A stretch of 64,000 nt of DNA from Extensimonas vulgaris (GTDB lineage: Bacteria > Pseudomonadota > Gammaproteobacteria > Burkholderiales > Burkholderiaceae_C), in assembly GCF_003337425.1 (NCBI RefSeq), contig NZ_QPJU01000001.1, positions 524,978-588,977 on the forward strand, read 5' to 3'. Positions 2,758 through 54,656 of this stretch are shown one piece after another (the first letter of the stretch is position 1; each line of letters opens with the position of its first letter). A model generated the notes under the pieces. That model had not been told where the DNA came from, made no database searches, and saw only the letters and a list, made by a program, of their open reading frames with translations. The position numbers and the translations under genes were made by a program.

Positions 2758-4053
2758 ATGCCCACCATCCCCATCCACCCGGCTGCATCCGATGCGCAGC
2801 ACGGCGCCGACCCCGCCCCTGCCCTCACTGCCGAGCCCGCCCCGGCCACGCCGCGCGACCTGCAGCAATCCATGCGCCCGGGCGTGCTGCACCTGCCCAG
2901 CCTGCCGCCGCTCGCGCTCTACGTGCACCTGCCCTGGTGCCTGAAAAAATGCCCGTACTGCGACTTCAACTCGCACGCGCTGACGGCCAGCGGGGCCGAG
3001 GCCGAAGCGCTGCAGTCGCGCTACCTCGACGCGCTCGTCGCCGACCTCGAAGCCGCGCTGCCGCTCGTGTGGGGGCGCAAGGTCTTGAGCGTCTTTCTCG
3101 GCGGCGGCACGCCCAGCCTGTTCGCGCCCGAGCGCATCGAAGCGCTGCTGGGCGCGCTCCGCGCGCGGCTGCCGCTGCTGCCGGGCTGCGAGATCACGCT
3201 CGAAGCCAACCCCGGCAGCTTCGAGCGCGAGCGTTTTCACGCCTTTCGCGCCGCGGGCGTCACGCGCCTGTCGGTGGGCGTGCAGAGCTTTTCCGACCGC
3301 CACCTGCAGGCGCTGGGCCGCGTGCACGACCGCGCGCAAGCCCTGGCCGCCATGCAGGAGGCCGCGCAGGCGTTCGACAATTTCAACCTCGACCTGATGT
3401 ACGCCCTGCCCGGCCAGACGCTCGCAGAATTAGAGCAGGATGTGCACACTGCGCTTGCCTTTGCGCCGCCGCACCTCTCCATCTACCAGCTCACCGTCGA
3501 GCCCAACACCTACTTTGCCAAACACCCGCCGCCCGCGCTGCCCGAGGACGACCTGGCCTACGCCATGCTCGACCGCATCACCGCGCTCACGCAGGCCGCG
3601 GGCCTACAGCGCTATGAAGTCTCGGCCTACGCGCGGCCCGGCCACGCCTGCGTGCACAACGGCAATTACTGGCAGTTTGGCGACTACCTGGGCCTGGGCG
3701 CGGGTGCACACAGCAAGCTGAGCTTCGCGCACCGCATCGTGCGCCAGGTGCGCTTTCGTGATCCGCAGCGCTACATCGCGCAGGCGCTCACGGGCCAGGC
3801 CGTGGCGCAGGACGACGAGGTACGCCGCGCCGACCTGCCGTTCGAATTCATGCTCAACGCACTGCGCCTGCGCGCAGGCTTTGCGCTGCAAGACTACTGC
3901 GACCGCACCGGCCTGCCGCTTTCGACCATCGCCCCGGCGCTGGAGCAGGCCGAACGCCAGGGCCTGATCACACGCGACCTGGGCCACGTGCGCCCGACGG
4001 CGCGCGGATTTGACTTTTTGAACGACCTGCTCGCGTTCTTTTTGCCGGAGTAG
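2758..4053 (+). CDS. hemW: Radical SAM heme chaperone HemW (HemN-like)
   Basis: A radical SAM protein of the HemW branch, which binds heme and is thought to deliver it to target proteins; it is often annotated as oxygen-independent coproporphyrinogen oxidase. The 4Fe-4S/SAM motif CLKKCPYC uses Cys 61, 65 and 68. It is followed by FLGGGTPSLF, LEANPG and SVGVQSFSDRHL, and a C-terminal HemW domain. ATG at 2758 gives 431 residues with about 50 low-complexity Ala/Pro residues before the core; an alternative ATG at 2872 would give a more usual N-terminus. The stop codon (TAG) coincides with the left end of an F2 palindromic element. Confidence 0.93.
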   Translation: MPTIPIHPAASDAQHGADPAPALTAEPAPATPRDLQQSMRPGVLHLPSLPPLALYVHLPWCLKKCPYCDFNSHALTASGAEAEALQSRYLDALVADLEAALPLVWGRKVLSVFLGGGTPSLFAPERIEALLGALRARLPLLPGCEITLEANPGSFERERFHAFRAAGVTRLSVGVQSFSDRHLQALGRVHDRAQALAAMQEAAQAFDNFNLDLMYALPGQTLAELEQDVHTALAFAPPHLSIYQLTVEPNTYFAKHPPPALPEDDLAYAMLDRITALTQAAGLQRYEVSAYARPGHACVHNGNYWQFGDYLGLGAGAHSKLSFAHRIVRQVRFRDPQRYIAQALTGQAVAQDDEVRRADLPFEFMLNALRLRAGFALQDYCDRTGLPLSTIAPALEQAERQGLITRDLGHVRPTARGFDFLNDLLAFFLPE

Positions 4054-4143
4054 CAGCCTGTCGGACTTTGGGCGTCGATAGCGAGAATGGGCTCCAGCGG
4101 CGCATTCGCAGCCGACGACTCCAAAGTCCGACAGGCTGCCAGG
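4051..4143. mobile_element. Short F2-family palindromic element between hemW and pilB
   Basis: Terminal inverted repeats GCAGCCTGTCGGACTTTGG at the left and its complement at 4121-4139 enclose a short core containing GGCGTCGATAGCGAGAA and GCGGCGCATTCGCAGCCGACGA. Those core blocks also occur in the 169-bp copy in gloB (48635-48803), but the middle part is missing here. This is therefore an internally deleted member. The hemW stop codon lies at its left edge. Confidence 0.8.
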
Positions 4144-7185: not shown

Positions 7186-8093
7186 TGGGCCTGGAGCTTT
7201 GGCCGCCGGCGGTGCAAGTGGCGCTGGCAGGTGTTTTGGGCCTGCTGCTGGGTAGCTTTCTCAACGTCGTCATCTACCGCCTGCCCAAGATGATGGAGCA
7301 GCAATGGGCGGCGGAATGCGCCGAGTTTGTGGCACAGCAGCAATCCGATGGCGCAAAGCCCCCGGCGCACGCTGGGGTGACGGCGCCGGTTGCGCCCGCG
7401 CAAGCCTTCAACCTCTGGACGCCACGCTCGCGCTGCCCCGCATGCGGGCACGGCGTGCGCTGGTGGGAAAACATCCCCGTGCTGAGCTTTTTGTATCTGC
7501 GCGGGCGCTGCTCGGCCTGCGGCGCGCGCATTGGCTGGCGCTATCCGCTCGTCGAACTGGCGACCGCTGGCCTCTTTGCCTGGTGCATCGCCCGCTGGGG
7601 CTGGACGCCTGCGGGACTTTGCTGGTGCGGCTTTGCGGCGGCCTTGCTCGCGCTGGCCTGCATAGACTGGGACACCACGCTGCTGCCCGACGACATCACC
7701 CAGCCTTTGCTGTGGGCGGGCTTGCTGGCGTCCGTGCTGGGCTGGAGTGGCGTGCCGCTTTCCCAGGCCGTGGTCGGCGCGGCGGCGGGGTATTTGTCGC
7801 TGTGGCTGGTGTATTGGGGCTTCAAGCTCGCCACGGGCAAGGAGGGTATGGGCTTTGGCGATTTCAAGCTGTTTGCCGCCCTGGGTGCCTGGTTTGGCTG
7901 GCAGGCGCTGGTGCCCATCATCCTGCTCGCTTCGGTGATCGGCGCGCTGGTGGGCATCGCCATGAAAGTATTCCACACCCTGCGCCCGGGCGGCTACGTG
8001 CCTTTTGGGCCCTTTTTGGCTGGTGCGGGCATCGTTGCCATGGTGTTCGGGCCTGGCGCCATCTTGCAGGCCGTCTGGATGCTGCTAGTGTAG
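7185..8093 (+). CDS. pilD: Prepilin leader peptidase / N-methyltransferase PilD
   Basis: An inner-membrane aspartyl protease that cleaves prepilin leaders and methylates the new N-terminus. It has 302 residues, many membrane segments, a cytoplasmic zinc motif with two CxxC pairs (CPAC and CSAC), and the two catalytic Asp regions [12 protein letters not shown] and [17 protein letters not shown] couples it to pilC. The last two codons and the stop (CTA GTG TAG) lie inside the F1 element at 8085. Removing the element and one CTAG gives CTG CTA GGA TGA, so the ancestral protein ended Leu-Leu-Gly and overlapped the coaE start as ATGA. The insertion changed only the final residue. Confidence 0.96.
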
Positions 8094-8250
8094 TGTTCGA
8101 CGCTATCTGCGACATCAAACCGCGTCTTTGCGGCCTGGGCCGCGTTGCAAATCCTCGCGATACCGCCCGGTATCGCTGCGGTTTGCGCCTTGCCCAGACC
8201 AAAAATCCATCGGTTTTATTTGTCGCATCAAGCATCAAACACTACACTAG
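8085..8250 (-). mobile_element. F1 palindromic element, copy 1 (166 bp)
   Basis: Bounded by CTAG on both sides, with ends CTAGTGYAGTGTTYGAYGC. It lies in the opposite orientation to the other three copies and has the same length. It supplies the pilD stop codon and lies 1 bp before the ATG of coaE. The coaE frame is open across the element. See findings for the reconstruction of the empty site. Confidence 0.9.
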
Positions 8251-21722: not shown

Positions 21723-21888
21723 CTAGTGCAGTGTTTGATGCTGGATGCGACCAATAAAACCGATGGATTTTTGGTCTGGGCAAGGCGCAAACCGCAGCGA
21801 TACCGGGTGGTATCGCGAGGATTTGCAACGCGGCCCAGGCCGAAAAGACGCGGTTTTATGTCGCAGATAGCGTCGAACACTGCACTAG
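21723..21888 (+). mobile_element. F1 palindromic element, copy 2 (166 bp)
   Basis: CTAG-bounded and the same length as the other three copies. It lies between convergent tusA and gshA, 1 bp from the gshA stop codon. Its centre holds GATACC-GGGT-GGTATC. The open frames visible across it are a by-product of the palindrome, not genes. Confidence 0.9.
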
Positions 21889-32488: not shown

Positions 32489-33541
32489 TCAAAATCCCGC
32501 CTCGCGCGCCAGCTGGGCCAGCAGCTGCGCCGCCGGCAGCGCACGCGCCAGCGGCGCGCCCTGCCCCGCCCAATGCGCGGCAAATTCATGCAGACCTTGT
32601 CGCACGGCGGCTGCGTGCAACTGCTTGGCCGCGTCGTAGGCCACCGGGTAAGCCGGCGGTGGCGGTGCACCTGCGGCCTTGCCCCATTCGATCAGGCGAT
32701 TGACCAGGCCGCGCGCTGGGCGCCCCGAGAGCACGCGCGTGAGCCGGGTATGCGATGCGCGCTCGCTCTGCAACTGCGCGCGGTAGGCCTCGGAGGCCGC
32801 GGACTCGGGGCACAAGATGAACGCCGTGCCCAACTGCACCGCAGCCGCACCGAGGTCCAGCGCGGCCCGAACCCCCTGTCCGTCCATGATGCCGCCCGCT
32901 GCGATCACGGGCAGGCGCGAGTGCTGCCGCAAAAGCCGCACGAGCACGGCGGTGCTCAGACCCTCGTCGGGCGCATCGGGGTCGAACACGCCGCGGTGCC
33001 CGCCCGCCTCCATGCCTTGCGCCACGATCGCATCCAGCCCTGCGCGCTCGATCTGCAGCGCCTCGTGCACATCGGTCGCCGTGGCAAGCAGAACAATGCC
33101 CGCCGCGCGCAGCGCCTGAATCCGCGCCGCGTCGGGCAGCCCGAAGTGAAAGCTCACCACCGCCGGGCGCAGCTGCAGCAGCAGCTCCACAGTTTGCGCA
33201 TCGTCACGAAAAGTTGGGTAGATCTCCTGCAAGGCCGCGGGCGGCGTCGCGCCCACTTCGGCAAACAGCGGCGCCAGATGCTGCAACCACGCGGCTTCAC
33301 CTTGGGCATCGCGCCGTGCGGGAGCATGGCAAAACACGTTCACGTTGAACGGCCGGCCCGTGCGCGCGCGGGTCGCTTCGAGCATGTCGCGTGCCTGCGC
33401 GGCGCTGCACGCGCCAATGCCCAATGAACCCAGACCACCCGCGTTGGAAACCGCTGCCGCGAGCTGCGGCGTGGACACCCCGGCCATGGGCGCCTGGATG
33501 ATGGGCCACTGCAGGCCGAGCCGGGTTTGCAGGTACGACAT
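32489..33541 (-). CDS. Nitronate monooxygenase (2-nitropropane dioxygenase family)
   Basis: A 350-residue FMN-dependent TIM-barrel protein. Motifs include [20 protein letters not shown] at the start, [20 protein letters not shown] with the catalytic His, and [15 protein letters not shown] followed by [11 protein letters not shown]. Family members oxidise alkyl nitronates such as propionate-3-nitronate, a detoxification role. It lies just before coaBC and just after a Bug-type binding protein, with no clear shared pathway. ATG at 33541 gives the canonical N-terminus. Confidence 0.88.
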
Positions 33542-33566
33542 GGGTGTGCTTTCAGAAAAGGACGAT

Positions 33567-34556
33567 TCACTGCGGCCGGAACCCACTGCCCTGAATGATG
33601 CGCGCCCACGCTGCGCGGTAGGCGCGTTCGCGCGCGTCGAGCTGCTCGGGCGCCATGAAGCCTACGCTCAAGCCCATGTCGGTGAGCTGCTGGCGTATGT
33701 CCGGCAGCGCCAGCACCTTGGCGAGCGCGCGCGAAAAGTCGGAAACGAACTGCGCCGGCACGCCGCGTGGCGCCCAGACGCCATAAAAAGGCGTGTCCTC
33801 CAGCCCCGCAAAGCCCAGCTCGCCGAACGTGGGCACGTCGGGCAAGACCGTCTGGCGCTGGGCGCCGACCACAGCGAGCATGTGCAGCTTGCCGCTGCGC
33901 AAATGTTCGATGAAGTCGGCCGACGAACCTATGCCCGCGGGAATCTGCTGGCCCAGCATGTCGGCGATCATCGGCGCACTGCCCTTGTAGGGCACGGCCA
34001 CCAGGTCCAAGCCATAGCGTTTGGAGAGCAGCTGCACCAGAAATTCGGGTGTGGAGGCCGGCGCGGGGATGCCGATGGCGCTTTTGCCGCCCTGCGCCTT
34101 CACCCACGCCACGTACTGCGCCAGACTGCGCGCCGGTGTGCCCGGGGCGACGGCCAGCCCGTTCACGAAGCTGGCCACACCGCCGAGCGGCACGAAATCG
34201 GTGTGCGGGTCGTAGCCCGGATGCGCGAGCACCAGCGGCAAGATGGAGATGGTGTGGTCGTGCGACAGCAGCACCGCGCTGCCATCGGCGGGCGCGGCCT
34301 TGAGCCACTGCGCCGCGAGCTGCCCGCCCGCACCGGGGCGGTTGTCCACCATGACGGGACGCTGCAGCGCATCCTTGAGCTTTTCGGCGAGCAGGCGGGC
34401 GATCACGTCCGAGCCACCCCCGGGCGGAAAACCCACGAGGATGCGCAGGGGCTTGTCCTGCGCCGCAGCCCGGGCAACAGGCCATGCCGCCGCCGCCAAC
34501 GCGCCCACGAGGAGGCGGCGACGGCTAGTGTAGTGTTTGATGCTTGATGCGACCAA
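33567..34556 (-). CDS. Bug/TctC-family periplasmic binding protein with a disturbed 5' end
   Basis: The body is a complete Bug (TctC) solute receptor of about 300 residues: [29 protein letters not shown], the [18 protein letters not shown] segment and DVPTFGEL. A signal peptide [21 protein letters not shown] is intact, but the codons before it (ACT AGC) are the CTAG end of an F1 element and no native start remains. The frame stays open across the element; the nearest usable start is a TTG at 34556 inside it, giving 329 residues. An ATG further upstream would bury the signal. The gene may still be weakly expressed or may be decaying. Confidence 0.7.
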
Positions 34557-34690
34557 TAAAACCGATGGATTTTTGGTCTGGGCAAGGCGCAAACCGCAGC
34601 GATACCGGGCGGTATCGCGAGGATTTGCAACGCGGCCCAGGCCGAAAAGACGCGGTTTTATGTCGCAGATAGCGTCGAACACTGCACTAG
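34525..34690 (+). mobile_element. F1 palindromic element, copy 3 (166 bp)
   Basis: CTAG-bounded. The left end cuts into the first codons of the TctC-like gene. The right CTAG is shared with an F2-like repeat starting at 34687, so two element families meet at one target. Confidence 0.9.
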
Positions 34691-34772
34691 GAGCCTGTCG
34701 AACTTTGGGTATCGAAAGAGGCATGGGTGACATGGATGGCTGCAGAAAAAAGGGGAGTGAAACGACAGGCTG
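34687..34772. mobile_element. Degenerate F2-family element next to F1 copy 3
   Basis: CTAGGAGCCTGTCGAACTTTGG at the left and CGACAGGCTG at the right match the F2 ends, but the core (GGTATCGAAAGAGGCATGGG...) differs from the gloB and pilB copies, and the right CTAG is lost. It is older or recombined. Confidence 0.55.
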
Positions 34773-34798
34773 AAATTCTATGGGCCGGCCAGCCCTGA

Positions 34799-36610
<1,812 letters not shown>

Positions 36611-48511: not shown

Positions 48512-49456
48512 ATGAAGCTCATTCCTCTACCTGCGTTTAGCGACAACTACCTTTGGCTGCTCCACGATGAGGCAGGCCAAGCCTTGGTCGTCGATCCTGG
48601 AGATGCCGCACCGGTTCAAGACGCCCTCCAGCGCCTAGGAGCCTGTCCGACTTTGGGCGTCGATAGCGAGAAGGCGCCCCAGCGTGACCAGTTTTTGCCG
48701 GATTCGCCGCCCCATAGCGGGACTATGGGGCAAGAAGACGGTAAAAAATGGGCCGCTGCGGCGCATTCGCAGCCGACGATTCCAAAGTCCGACAGGCTCC
48801 TAGGGCTGCAATTGCGCGCAATTTTAGTCACGCACCACCACCCCGACCATGTCGGCGGCGTGGCCGCGCTGCGCGACGCCACCGGGGCGCAGGTCTATGG
48901 CCCGGCGCGCGAAACCGTCCCCGAGCCGCTCGTGCGGCTGCAGCAAGGCGACACCGTCGAAGTGCTGGGCCTGCGCTTTGCGGTGCTCGACGTGCCGGGC
49001 CACACGGCGGGGCATATCGCGTTTTTCGCGCCCGAGGCCGAAGGCGGGCCACTGCTGTTTTGCGGCGACACCTTGTTTTCCGGCGGCTGCGGGCGGCTGT
49101 TCGAGGGCACGCCTGCGCAAATGCTCGCCTCGCTCGACCAGCTGGCAGCGCTGCCCGACGCCACGCGCGTGTGCTGCGCGCATGAATACACGCTCTCGAA
49201 CCTGAAATTCGCGCGCGCCGTGGAGCCCGACAACCAGGCCCTGCGCGACTACCAGCAGCGCTGCGAAGACCTGCGCGCCCAGGGCCTGCCCACCTTGCCC
49301 TCGACCATCGCACTCGAGCGCGCCATCAACCCGTTTTTGCGCACGCGCGAAGCCGCCGTGGCGGCCGCCGCGCAGCGCCACGACCCTGCCGTGAACCCTG
49401 CCGACCCCGTTGCCGTGCTGGCCGCACTGCGCGCATGGAAAAACGGCTTTCAATGA
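48512..49456 (+). CDS. gloB: Hydroxyacylglutathione hydrolase with a 55-residue element-encoded insert
   Basis: Glyoxalase II, hydrolysing S-lactoylglutathione to lactate and glutathione. All catalytic features are intact: THHHPDH metal motif, GHTAGHIAF, FCGDTLFSGGCGRLFEG, CCAHEYT and the C-terminal NPFLRT. The protein has 314 residues rather than the usual 258. The extra residues 43-97 are encoded by an F2 element inserted at a CTAG (Leu-Gly junction) with a 4-bp duplication, adding exactly 165 bp without a stop. The insert lies between an N-terminal helix and the strand that leads to the metal motif. Activity is likely but untested. Confidence 0.93.
   Translation: MKLIPLPAFSDNYLWLLHDEAGQALVVDPGDAAPVQDALQRLGACPTLGVDSEKAPQRDQFLPDSPPHSGTMGQEDGKKWAAAAHSQPTIPKSDRLLGLQLRAILVTHHHPDHVGGVAALRDATGAQVYGPARETVPEPLVRLQQGDTVEVLGLRFAVLDVPGHTAGHIAFFAPEAEGGPLLFCGDTLFSGGCGRLFEGTPAQMLASLDQLAALPDATRVCCAHEYTLSNLKFARAVEPDNQALRDYQQRCEDLRAQGLPTLPSTIALERAINPFLRTREAAVAAAAQRHDPAVNPADPVAVLAALRAWKNGFQ
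48635..48803 (+). mobile_element. F2 palindromic element, full copy inside gloB (169 bp)
   Basis: CTAG at both ends; inverted ends GAGCCTGTCSGACTTTGG. The two halves pair over nearly the whole length, with a central hairpin CCCCATAG-CGGGA-CTATGGGG. Removing 165 bp restores CAGCGCCTAGGGCTGCAA, which encodes QRLGLQ as in normal GloB. Confidence 0.92.
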
Positions 49457-54490: not shown

Positions 54491-54656
54491 CTAGTGCAGT
54501 GTTTGATGCTTGATGCGACCAATAAAACCGATGGATTTTTGGTCTGGGCAAGGCGCAAACCGCAGCGATACCGGGTGGTATCGCGAGGATTTGCAACGCG
54601 GCCCAGGCCGAAAAGACGCGGTTTTATGTCGCAGATAGCGTCGAACACTGCACTAG
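54491..54656 (+). mobile_element. F1 palindromic element, copy 4 (166 bp)
   Basis: CTAG-bounded and nearly identical to copies 2 and 3. Removal of 162 bp joins AAGCG-CTAG-ATGCTATTTCTTATATAGC, which is a continuous family S repeat. The element therefore entered a pre-existing repeat. Confidence 0.92.

Follow-up and report, generated by a model that had tools for sequence, protein, structure and literature searches.

The palindromic repeat element F1 has probably inserted in frame into a gene for a TctC-like receptor (tctC) in Extensimonas, behind the start codon and ahead of the signal peptide. The insertion, F1 copy 3, lies in the window, the whole 64-kb stretch of DNA analysed here, and comparison with an ortholog from Extensimonas perlucida shows, at the level of sequence, that the ancestral start of tctC lies upstream of F1 and has been retained. 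This corrects the first-pass annotation, according to which F1 had removed the start of the gene: the start sequence of the uninterrupted E. perlucida ortholog is kept in frame upstream of F1, which places the ancestral ATG beyond the element, not lost. Three genomes were compared: the window's own (G000, 3.09 Mb), a sister genome (G001) and G002, apparently that of E. perlucida HX2-24. The features of the window are collected in Table 1.

Table 1. Features at the tctC locus and further repeat copies in the window
Feature	Positions	Strand	Basis or remark
TctC-like (Bug-type) receptor gene	33567..34733	-	388-aa open frame read from the retained ATG, with stop
Retained ancestral ATG (MSP...)	34731..34733	-	ATGTCACCCA common to the window and the E. 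perlucida ortholog
Second in-frame ATG (MPL...)	34722..34724	-	in-frame start listing
In-frame TTG inside F1, possible alternative start	34554..34556	-	leader of 11 residues before RR
Twin-arginine-like signal peptide	34461..34526	-	SRRRLL motif by eye; sequence; alignment
F1 copy 3	34525..34690	-	bounded by CTAG; adds 162 bp net (54 codons); folds into a strong hairpin
F1 copy	8085..8250	+	repeat matches
F1 copy	21723..21888	-	repeat matches
F1 copy	54491..54656	-	repeat matches
F2 relic, last 32 nt of a repeat end	34687..34718	-	29/32 identical to F2 copies; read LSIPKVRQAPS
Full-length F2 copy	48635..48803		repeat matches
Shortened F2 copy	4051..4143		repeat matches
Nitronate monooxygenase open frame	32489..33586	-	without insert in the window
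Open frame, presumably pyrG (CTP synthase), divergent neighbour	34871..36610	+

The gene belongs to the TctC receptors by its domain: the 383-residue reading that begins at 34718 matches PF03401 (TctC) in Pfam over residues 106–377, at 1.3e-43 and 150 bits against a cut-off of 27. It has the order of other TctC/Bug receptors, a signal peptide followed by the TctC domain, but differs from them in its leader, which runs to 70 residues before the twin arginines if the ATG at 34733 is used, 54 of them encoded by the mobile element. We take the signal peptide, with its SRRRLL motif judged by eye, to be of the Tat (twin-arginine) type. On the minus strand the sequence reads ATG TCA CCC ATG CCT CTT TCG ATA CCC AAA GTT CGA CAG GCT CCT AG, then F1, then C CGT CGC CGC CTC CTC; the order is thus the ATG (34733), then what remains (32 nt, 34718–34687) of a second repeat element, F2, then F1 and SRRRLL. 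The frame is free of stops from upstream of the ATG down to 33567 and stays open through F1, and the signal peptide is intact, directly following the terminal ACT-AGC of F1, the element's own CTAG end; both points had been made from the first inspection and hold in the sequence. Besides the ATG at 34733, the frame offers starts at ATG 34724, GTG 34682, TTG 34592 and TTG 34556. By eye, no clear Shine-Dalgarno sequence was seen before either ATG or before TTG 34556.

The position of the ancestral start is fixed by a single ortholog, the sole one close enough, that of E. perlucida HX2-24 (L039, of which L010 is a duplicate), which is 93% identical. This ortholog begins ATGTCACCCA..., encoding MSPTLPID-SRRRL, and reads ATGTCACCCACTCTGCCCATCGACTCT-CGTCGCCGCC, MSPTLPIDSRRRLI. 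The same 10-mer is found at 34733–34724 of the minus strand, on the far side of F1 and in frame with the signal peptide, and this is its single occurrence in the 64-kb window, where a mean of 0.06 is expected. The first base of its ATG lies 43 nt beyond the edge of F1, in frame, and in the protein alignment from MSP to SRRRL the leader in the window is 61 residues longer than that of E. perlucida. Leaders were counted in 13 of 18 orthologous loci, where the start lies 2–9 residues before the twin arginines, compared with 70 in the window. The five loci left out of the count are L010, as the duplicate of L039, together with L022, L042, L021 and L043; by eye, the twin arginines stand 3 and 1 residues in for L022 and L042, and L021 and L043 are without them at that place. 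The remainder of tctC is intact, with 318 codons compared with 321, and has a dN of 0.038 and a dS of 0.298 relative to E. perlucida, a ratio that mainly reflects the time before the insertion.

F1 copy 3 is a genuine member of a repeat family, as first noted: its CTAG ends lie at 34525–34528 and 34687–34690, and G000 holds 40 scored F1 copies at 96–100% identity. The F1 end pattern, allowing at most 2 mismatches, matches 119 times in the same genome, and the reversed control pattern does not match at all. At 166 bp, with a palindromic fold, inverted repeats, no transposase and many copies, F1 has the properties of a miniature inverted-repeat transposable element (MITE). Folded as RNA, it reaches -75.5 kcal/mol (z = -9.3 vs shuffles). 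CTAG is present at both edges in 35 of the 40 copies, and it could be part of the element itself. In two places (L170, G001:C49; L122, G000:C13:39479-39512) F1 ends are joined through a single CTAG, which is expected if element ends are themselves targets; one of the L122 copies may be incomplete. No convincing pair came from a search of the three genomes for an insertion sequence (IS) with F1-like ends, which allowed 4 mismatches and looked around PF01609 and PF05598 transposases, and the close F1-end matches in G002 belong to that genome's 2 F1 copies. IS630 elements prefer CTAG, but IS630 was rejected as a source of F1, since PF13358 is absent from G000. Rfam returned a single match for 34300–35000, at 14.9 bits against a gathering score of 49. 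F1 gives matches in 6 of 10 other genomes, outside the genus mostly through a core of about 59 nt. In a second genus of the same family the core recurs dozens of times at 82–88%, as in L088 and the other matches from G027.

The F2 element has the structure CTAG-SAGCCTGTCGGACTTTGG ... CCAAAGTCCGACAGGCTS-CTAG and adds a net 165 bp. Its ends match 234 times in G000 at up to 2 mismatches, corresponding to about 117 copies. Of the 32 bases of the relic in tctC, 3 depart from those of F2 copies, and its reading has no stop. By exact motif, 14 of the 40 F1 copies abut an F2 terminus, copy 3 among them, and the sequence at the junction shows copy 3 as having landed in the CTAG that closes F2. A likely source of its transposase is a 1.5-kb IS (L279:1366-2899) that starts CTAGCAGCCTGTCGGACTT, ends AAGTCCGACAGGCTGCTAG and carries CTAG at both ends; its 452-aa transposase belongs to the IS1182 family (NF033551, 383.8 bits, cut-off 270). 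Like L279, the loci L281 (G000), L282 (G001) and L283 (G002) have at each end a sequence that departs from the 20-nt F2 end by no more than 2 mismatches, which makes four such IS loci; the transposase family scan covered L279 among them. F2 and this IS of the same genus share the terminal TAGCAGCCTGTCGGACTT as well as CTAG at both ends, and F2 is therefore best read as a MITE of that IS, from which it differs in being 165 bp net and without a transposase gene; F1, unlike F2, is without an IS partner found. F2 is probably mobilised by an IS1182-family transposase. Of 60 genomes searched with F2, 10 gave matches at E <= 0.001, G000 among them. Among the best 14 or fewer candidates scored per genome, identity reaches 97–100% in G000, G001 and G002 and 69–93% in the other seven genomes, where it is highest on short stretches.

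Whether an inserted element can be read through depends on its context. Inside a gene, the CTAG is read in one of two phases, CTA-GNN or NCT-AGN. F1 in the context found in tctC (+/phase-1) is free of stops in 87 of 89 full copies, compared with 30, 1 and 0 of the 89 in the three remaining contexts. For F2, assessed on 60 full copies from G000 and G001 that excluded the in-gene copies known by then, two contexts are open in 58 and 57 copies and the other two in 2 and 1; a random in-gene F2 would consequently be readable about 49% of the time. We infer the following order of events. The tctC gene would first have acquired an F2 copy directly behind its start, now reduced to 32 nt, and F1 would then have inserted into the terminal CTAG of F2, in the orientation and phase that are nearly always readable. 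A strain lacking both F1 and F2 would be expected to have ATGTCACCC adjacent to the signal peptide. With the ATG retained, the product would be a 388-residue preprotein carrying the 70-residue leader before its twin arginines, and either the Tat n-region would tolerate this extension or the TTG inside F1 would be used instead. Expression may have been lowered, the long hairpin of F1 beginning 43 nt after the A of the ATG.

It is somewhat unlikely, though it deserves weighing, that tctC has been silenced and is now a young pseudogene, whose protein is intact but poorly expressed or not exported. Pointing in this direction are the strong hairpin in the leader, the leader length of 70 residues against 2–9 in the counted orthologs, and the different DNA upstream. 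That upstream DNA is unlike that of E. perlucida and adjoins pyrG, so the tctC promoter may have changed. The DNA upstream of pyrG has different neighbours in G000, G001 and E. perlucida, which suggests rearrangement near repeat ends; positions 34734–34814 of the window are the DNA between tctC and pyrG. The sister genome G001 also seems to do without an ortholog: its best match to tctC is 38% identical, and a DNA query gave, in its tctC and nitronate monooxygenase part, no G001 match among the 40 of 408 candidates scored. In addition, F1 insertion can break other genes, because the F1-bearing units L184 and L168 carry stops, and tctC may be impaired as well. Against silencing stand the frame, which is undamaged through all 388 codons, those of the element among them, and the F2 relic, whose 3 changed bases out of 32 have introduced no stop.

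A further reading, which we consider unlikely, is that the old ATG has become too distant or is blocked by the hairpin, and that translation starts at TTG 34556, with F1 donating both the start codon and the n-region. The first-pass annotation had pointed to a TTG inside the element, and the codon is indeed there, in frame, with its first base at 34556; its leader of 11 residues comes near the 2–9 of the counted orthologs, and the stable F1 fold would fit a block on the upstream ATG. TTG is generally a weak start codon, however, no Shine-Dalgarno sequence is seen by eye upstream of it, and the ATG is both in frame and common to the ortholog. Highly improbable is the original proposal that F1 split off a start near the signal peptide, ATG-ACT-AGC, and left the gene without its true ATG: SRRR is indeed preceded by the element's own ACT-AGC, but the E. 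perlucida start sequence is found upstream of F1, and F1 borders there on an F2 end, the reading before F1 having been ...GCT CCT AGC CGT..., in which CTCCTAG is that end. What stands of the proposal is that F1 inserted at a CTAG and separates the ATG from the signal peptide; the placing of this target at codons 2–3 of the gene does not, as the CTAG belongs to F2. In-frame insertion downstream of a retained start thus remains the preferred account of the tctC locus.

The behaviour of both elements inside genes was surveyed in the three genomes on copies taken with their flanks, the F2 copies being the head of the result lists and not picked by context. In an empty-site test, the flanks were joined and the site was required to be spanned by a coding-like frame extending 35 codons or more to either side, the element itself being ignored. 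From 215 units, 14 were partial and 2 lay at edges, leaving 199: 101 single F2, 61 single F1, 32 F1/F2 composites, 4 F2+F2 and 1 F1+F1. The tested set included 68 F2-bearing units of G000, compared with about 117 copies by ends. Twenty-five units passed, 23 with F2 and 2 F1-bearing. One F2 unit (L261) was dropped as an in-gene case, since the signal peptide begins after the element. All 22 in-gene F2 copies keep the frame and are free of stops (20 of 165 bp, one of 102 and one of 186). They represent 19 distinct sites, three of them each common to two genomes (tsaC, L164/L251; an aminotransferase gene, L077/L243; pdxA, L224/L264), and the chance of all being readable is 0.49^19 = 1.4e-6. The two F1-bearing units, in contrast, both contain stops (one in L184, two in L168, an F2+F1 composite); repeated read-through of F1 in genes was thus not found, the open, N-terminal tctC case not being among the units that this test picked up. 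The in-gene share likewise differs, at 21 of 101 for single F2 and 1 of 61 for single F1 (Fisher p = 2.6e-4). The F2 pattern argues that read-through copies persist because unreadable inserts are removed, and by itself is no demonstration that the inserts are useful; it also carries a bias, as a gene-killing insertion may lead to gene decay and so escape the empty-site test.

By Pfam and NCBIfam, the genes that host F2 include tsaC, pdxA, serB, mpl, cysN and those for gamma-glutamyltranspeptidase, an AMP-binding enzyme, NAD(P)H-hydrate dehydratase, a DUF2126 protein, a UvrA-like protein, an MFS transporter, a sodium symporter, a Kdo transferase and an intein-bearing ribonucleotide reductase. 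In 17 of the 22 cases, the host family spans the insert or matches in two stretches; the two sides of F2 match different domains in L155 and L150, weakly on one side in L150, and L129, L253 and L257 have a family match on one side only. The same gene can be hit more than once. F2 occupies one site of tsaC in both G000 and G001 (L164, L251) that is without it in E. perlucida, where tsaC (L211) carries its own F2 further downstream, in frame. Similarly, pdxA contains a short, 102-bp F2 in G000 (L129), and G001 and G002 (L224, L264) carry a full-length copy elsewhere in the gene. Outside the empty-site test, the E. perlucida nitronate monooxygenase gene beside tctC, the copy on which the Pfam NMO run was made, carries an in-frame F2 in a usually closed context, with Trp where the reference copy has a stop. 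In L151 (G000:C3:167705-169863, 1-2157 minus), F2 lies in frame in the intein-bearing stretch of the ribonucleotide reductase, an apparent nesting of one mobile element inside another that itself sits in a gene. In the UvrA-like frame of L150, near-repeats (KWGSDSNF, KLGSDSNYF, KLESDPNL, SESDPHF) follow one another besides F2 and may represent a further family of in-frame repeats. An earlier sorting by a 150-bp coding score alone had missed L151 and L205; the same score flagged L071 (F1) and L138 (F2) as out of frame, and these two, uncalled by the empty-site test, could be disrupted genes.

Known systems offer two further likenesses, covered by the background reviews PMC10969869, PMC2229807 and PMC3733652. 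Rickettsia palindromic elements (RPE) are described as hairpin-forming repeats of about 105–150 bp that lie in frame in unrelated conserved genes (PMC10969869, PMC2229807); these reviews report them from Rickettsia and, by a cited title, from Wolbachia, and an RPE-like mechanism in other prokaryotes has been called conceivable (PMC10969869). F2 resembles them as a palindromic hairpin repeat that is in frame in unrelated conserved genes in 22 of 22 in-gene cases, a likeness drawn by description; it differs in its CTAG ends, an IS1182-family IS with the same ends, its net 165 bp and its host, Extensimonas (Comamonadaceae), a genus found in soil (PMC11936349). The second likeness is to ERIC and the 107-bp Correia element: there too, the open frames of MITEs continue in frame into host genes, as do those of many bacterial MITEs (PMC2229807). 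This limits the novelty of the present case, and F2 is set apart by other ends and hosts and by the 17 of 22 cases in which the host domain spans the insert or matches in two stretches. In the open-licence literature, no title or abstract opening reported in-frame palindromes in Comamonadaceae or IS1182-derived in-frame palindromes, and no title among papers naming Extensimonas concerned repeats.

We put forward tentatively that selfish palindromes in Extensimonas have evolved to be translatable, with a length of 3n and a stop-free frame in the CTAG phases, and spread within genes including tsaC, pdxA and serB, which they remodel in mid-domain; F1, through its copy in tctC, would add another family of this kind, one that provides a new N-terminal region for a secreted receptor. 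If true, translatable selfish palindromes spread in bacteria other than intracellular parasites. The best-known palindromic repeats that code for protein come from Rickettsia and Wolbachia, in which weakened selection could account for their persistence. Extensimonas, with some 117 F2 copies in G000 by end counts, 19 in-gene sites among the copies examined in three genomes, an IS with the same ends, and filled and empty sister sites, offers a setting for testing whether inserts of this kind are tolerated, neutral or useful.
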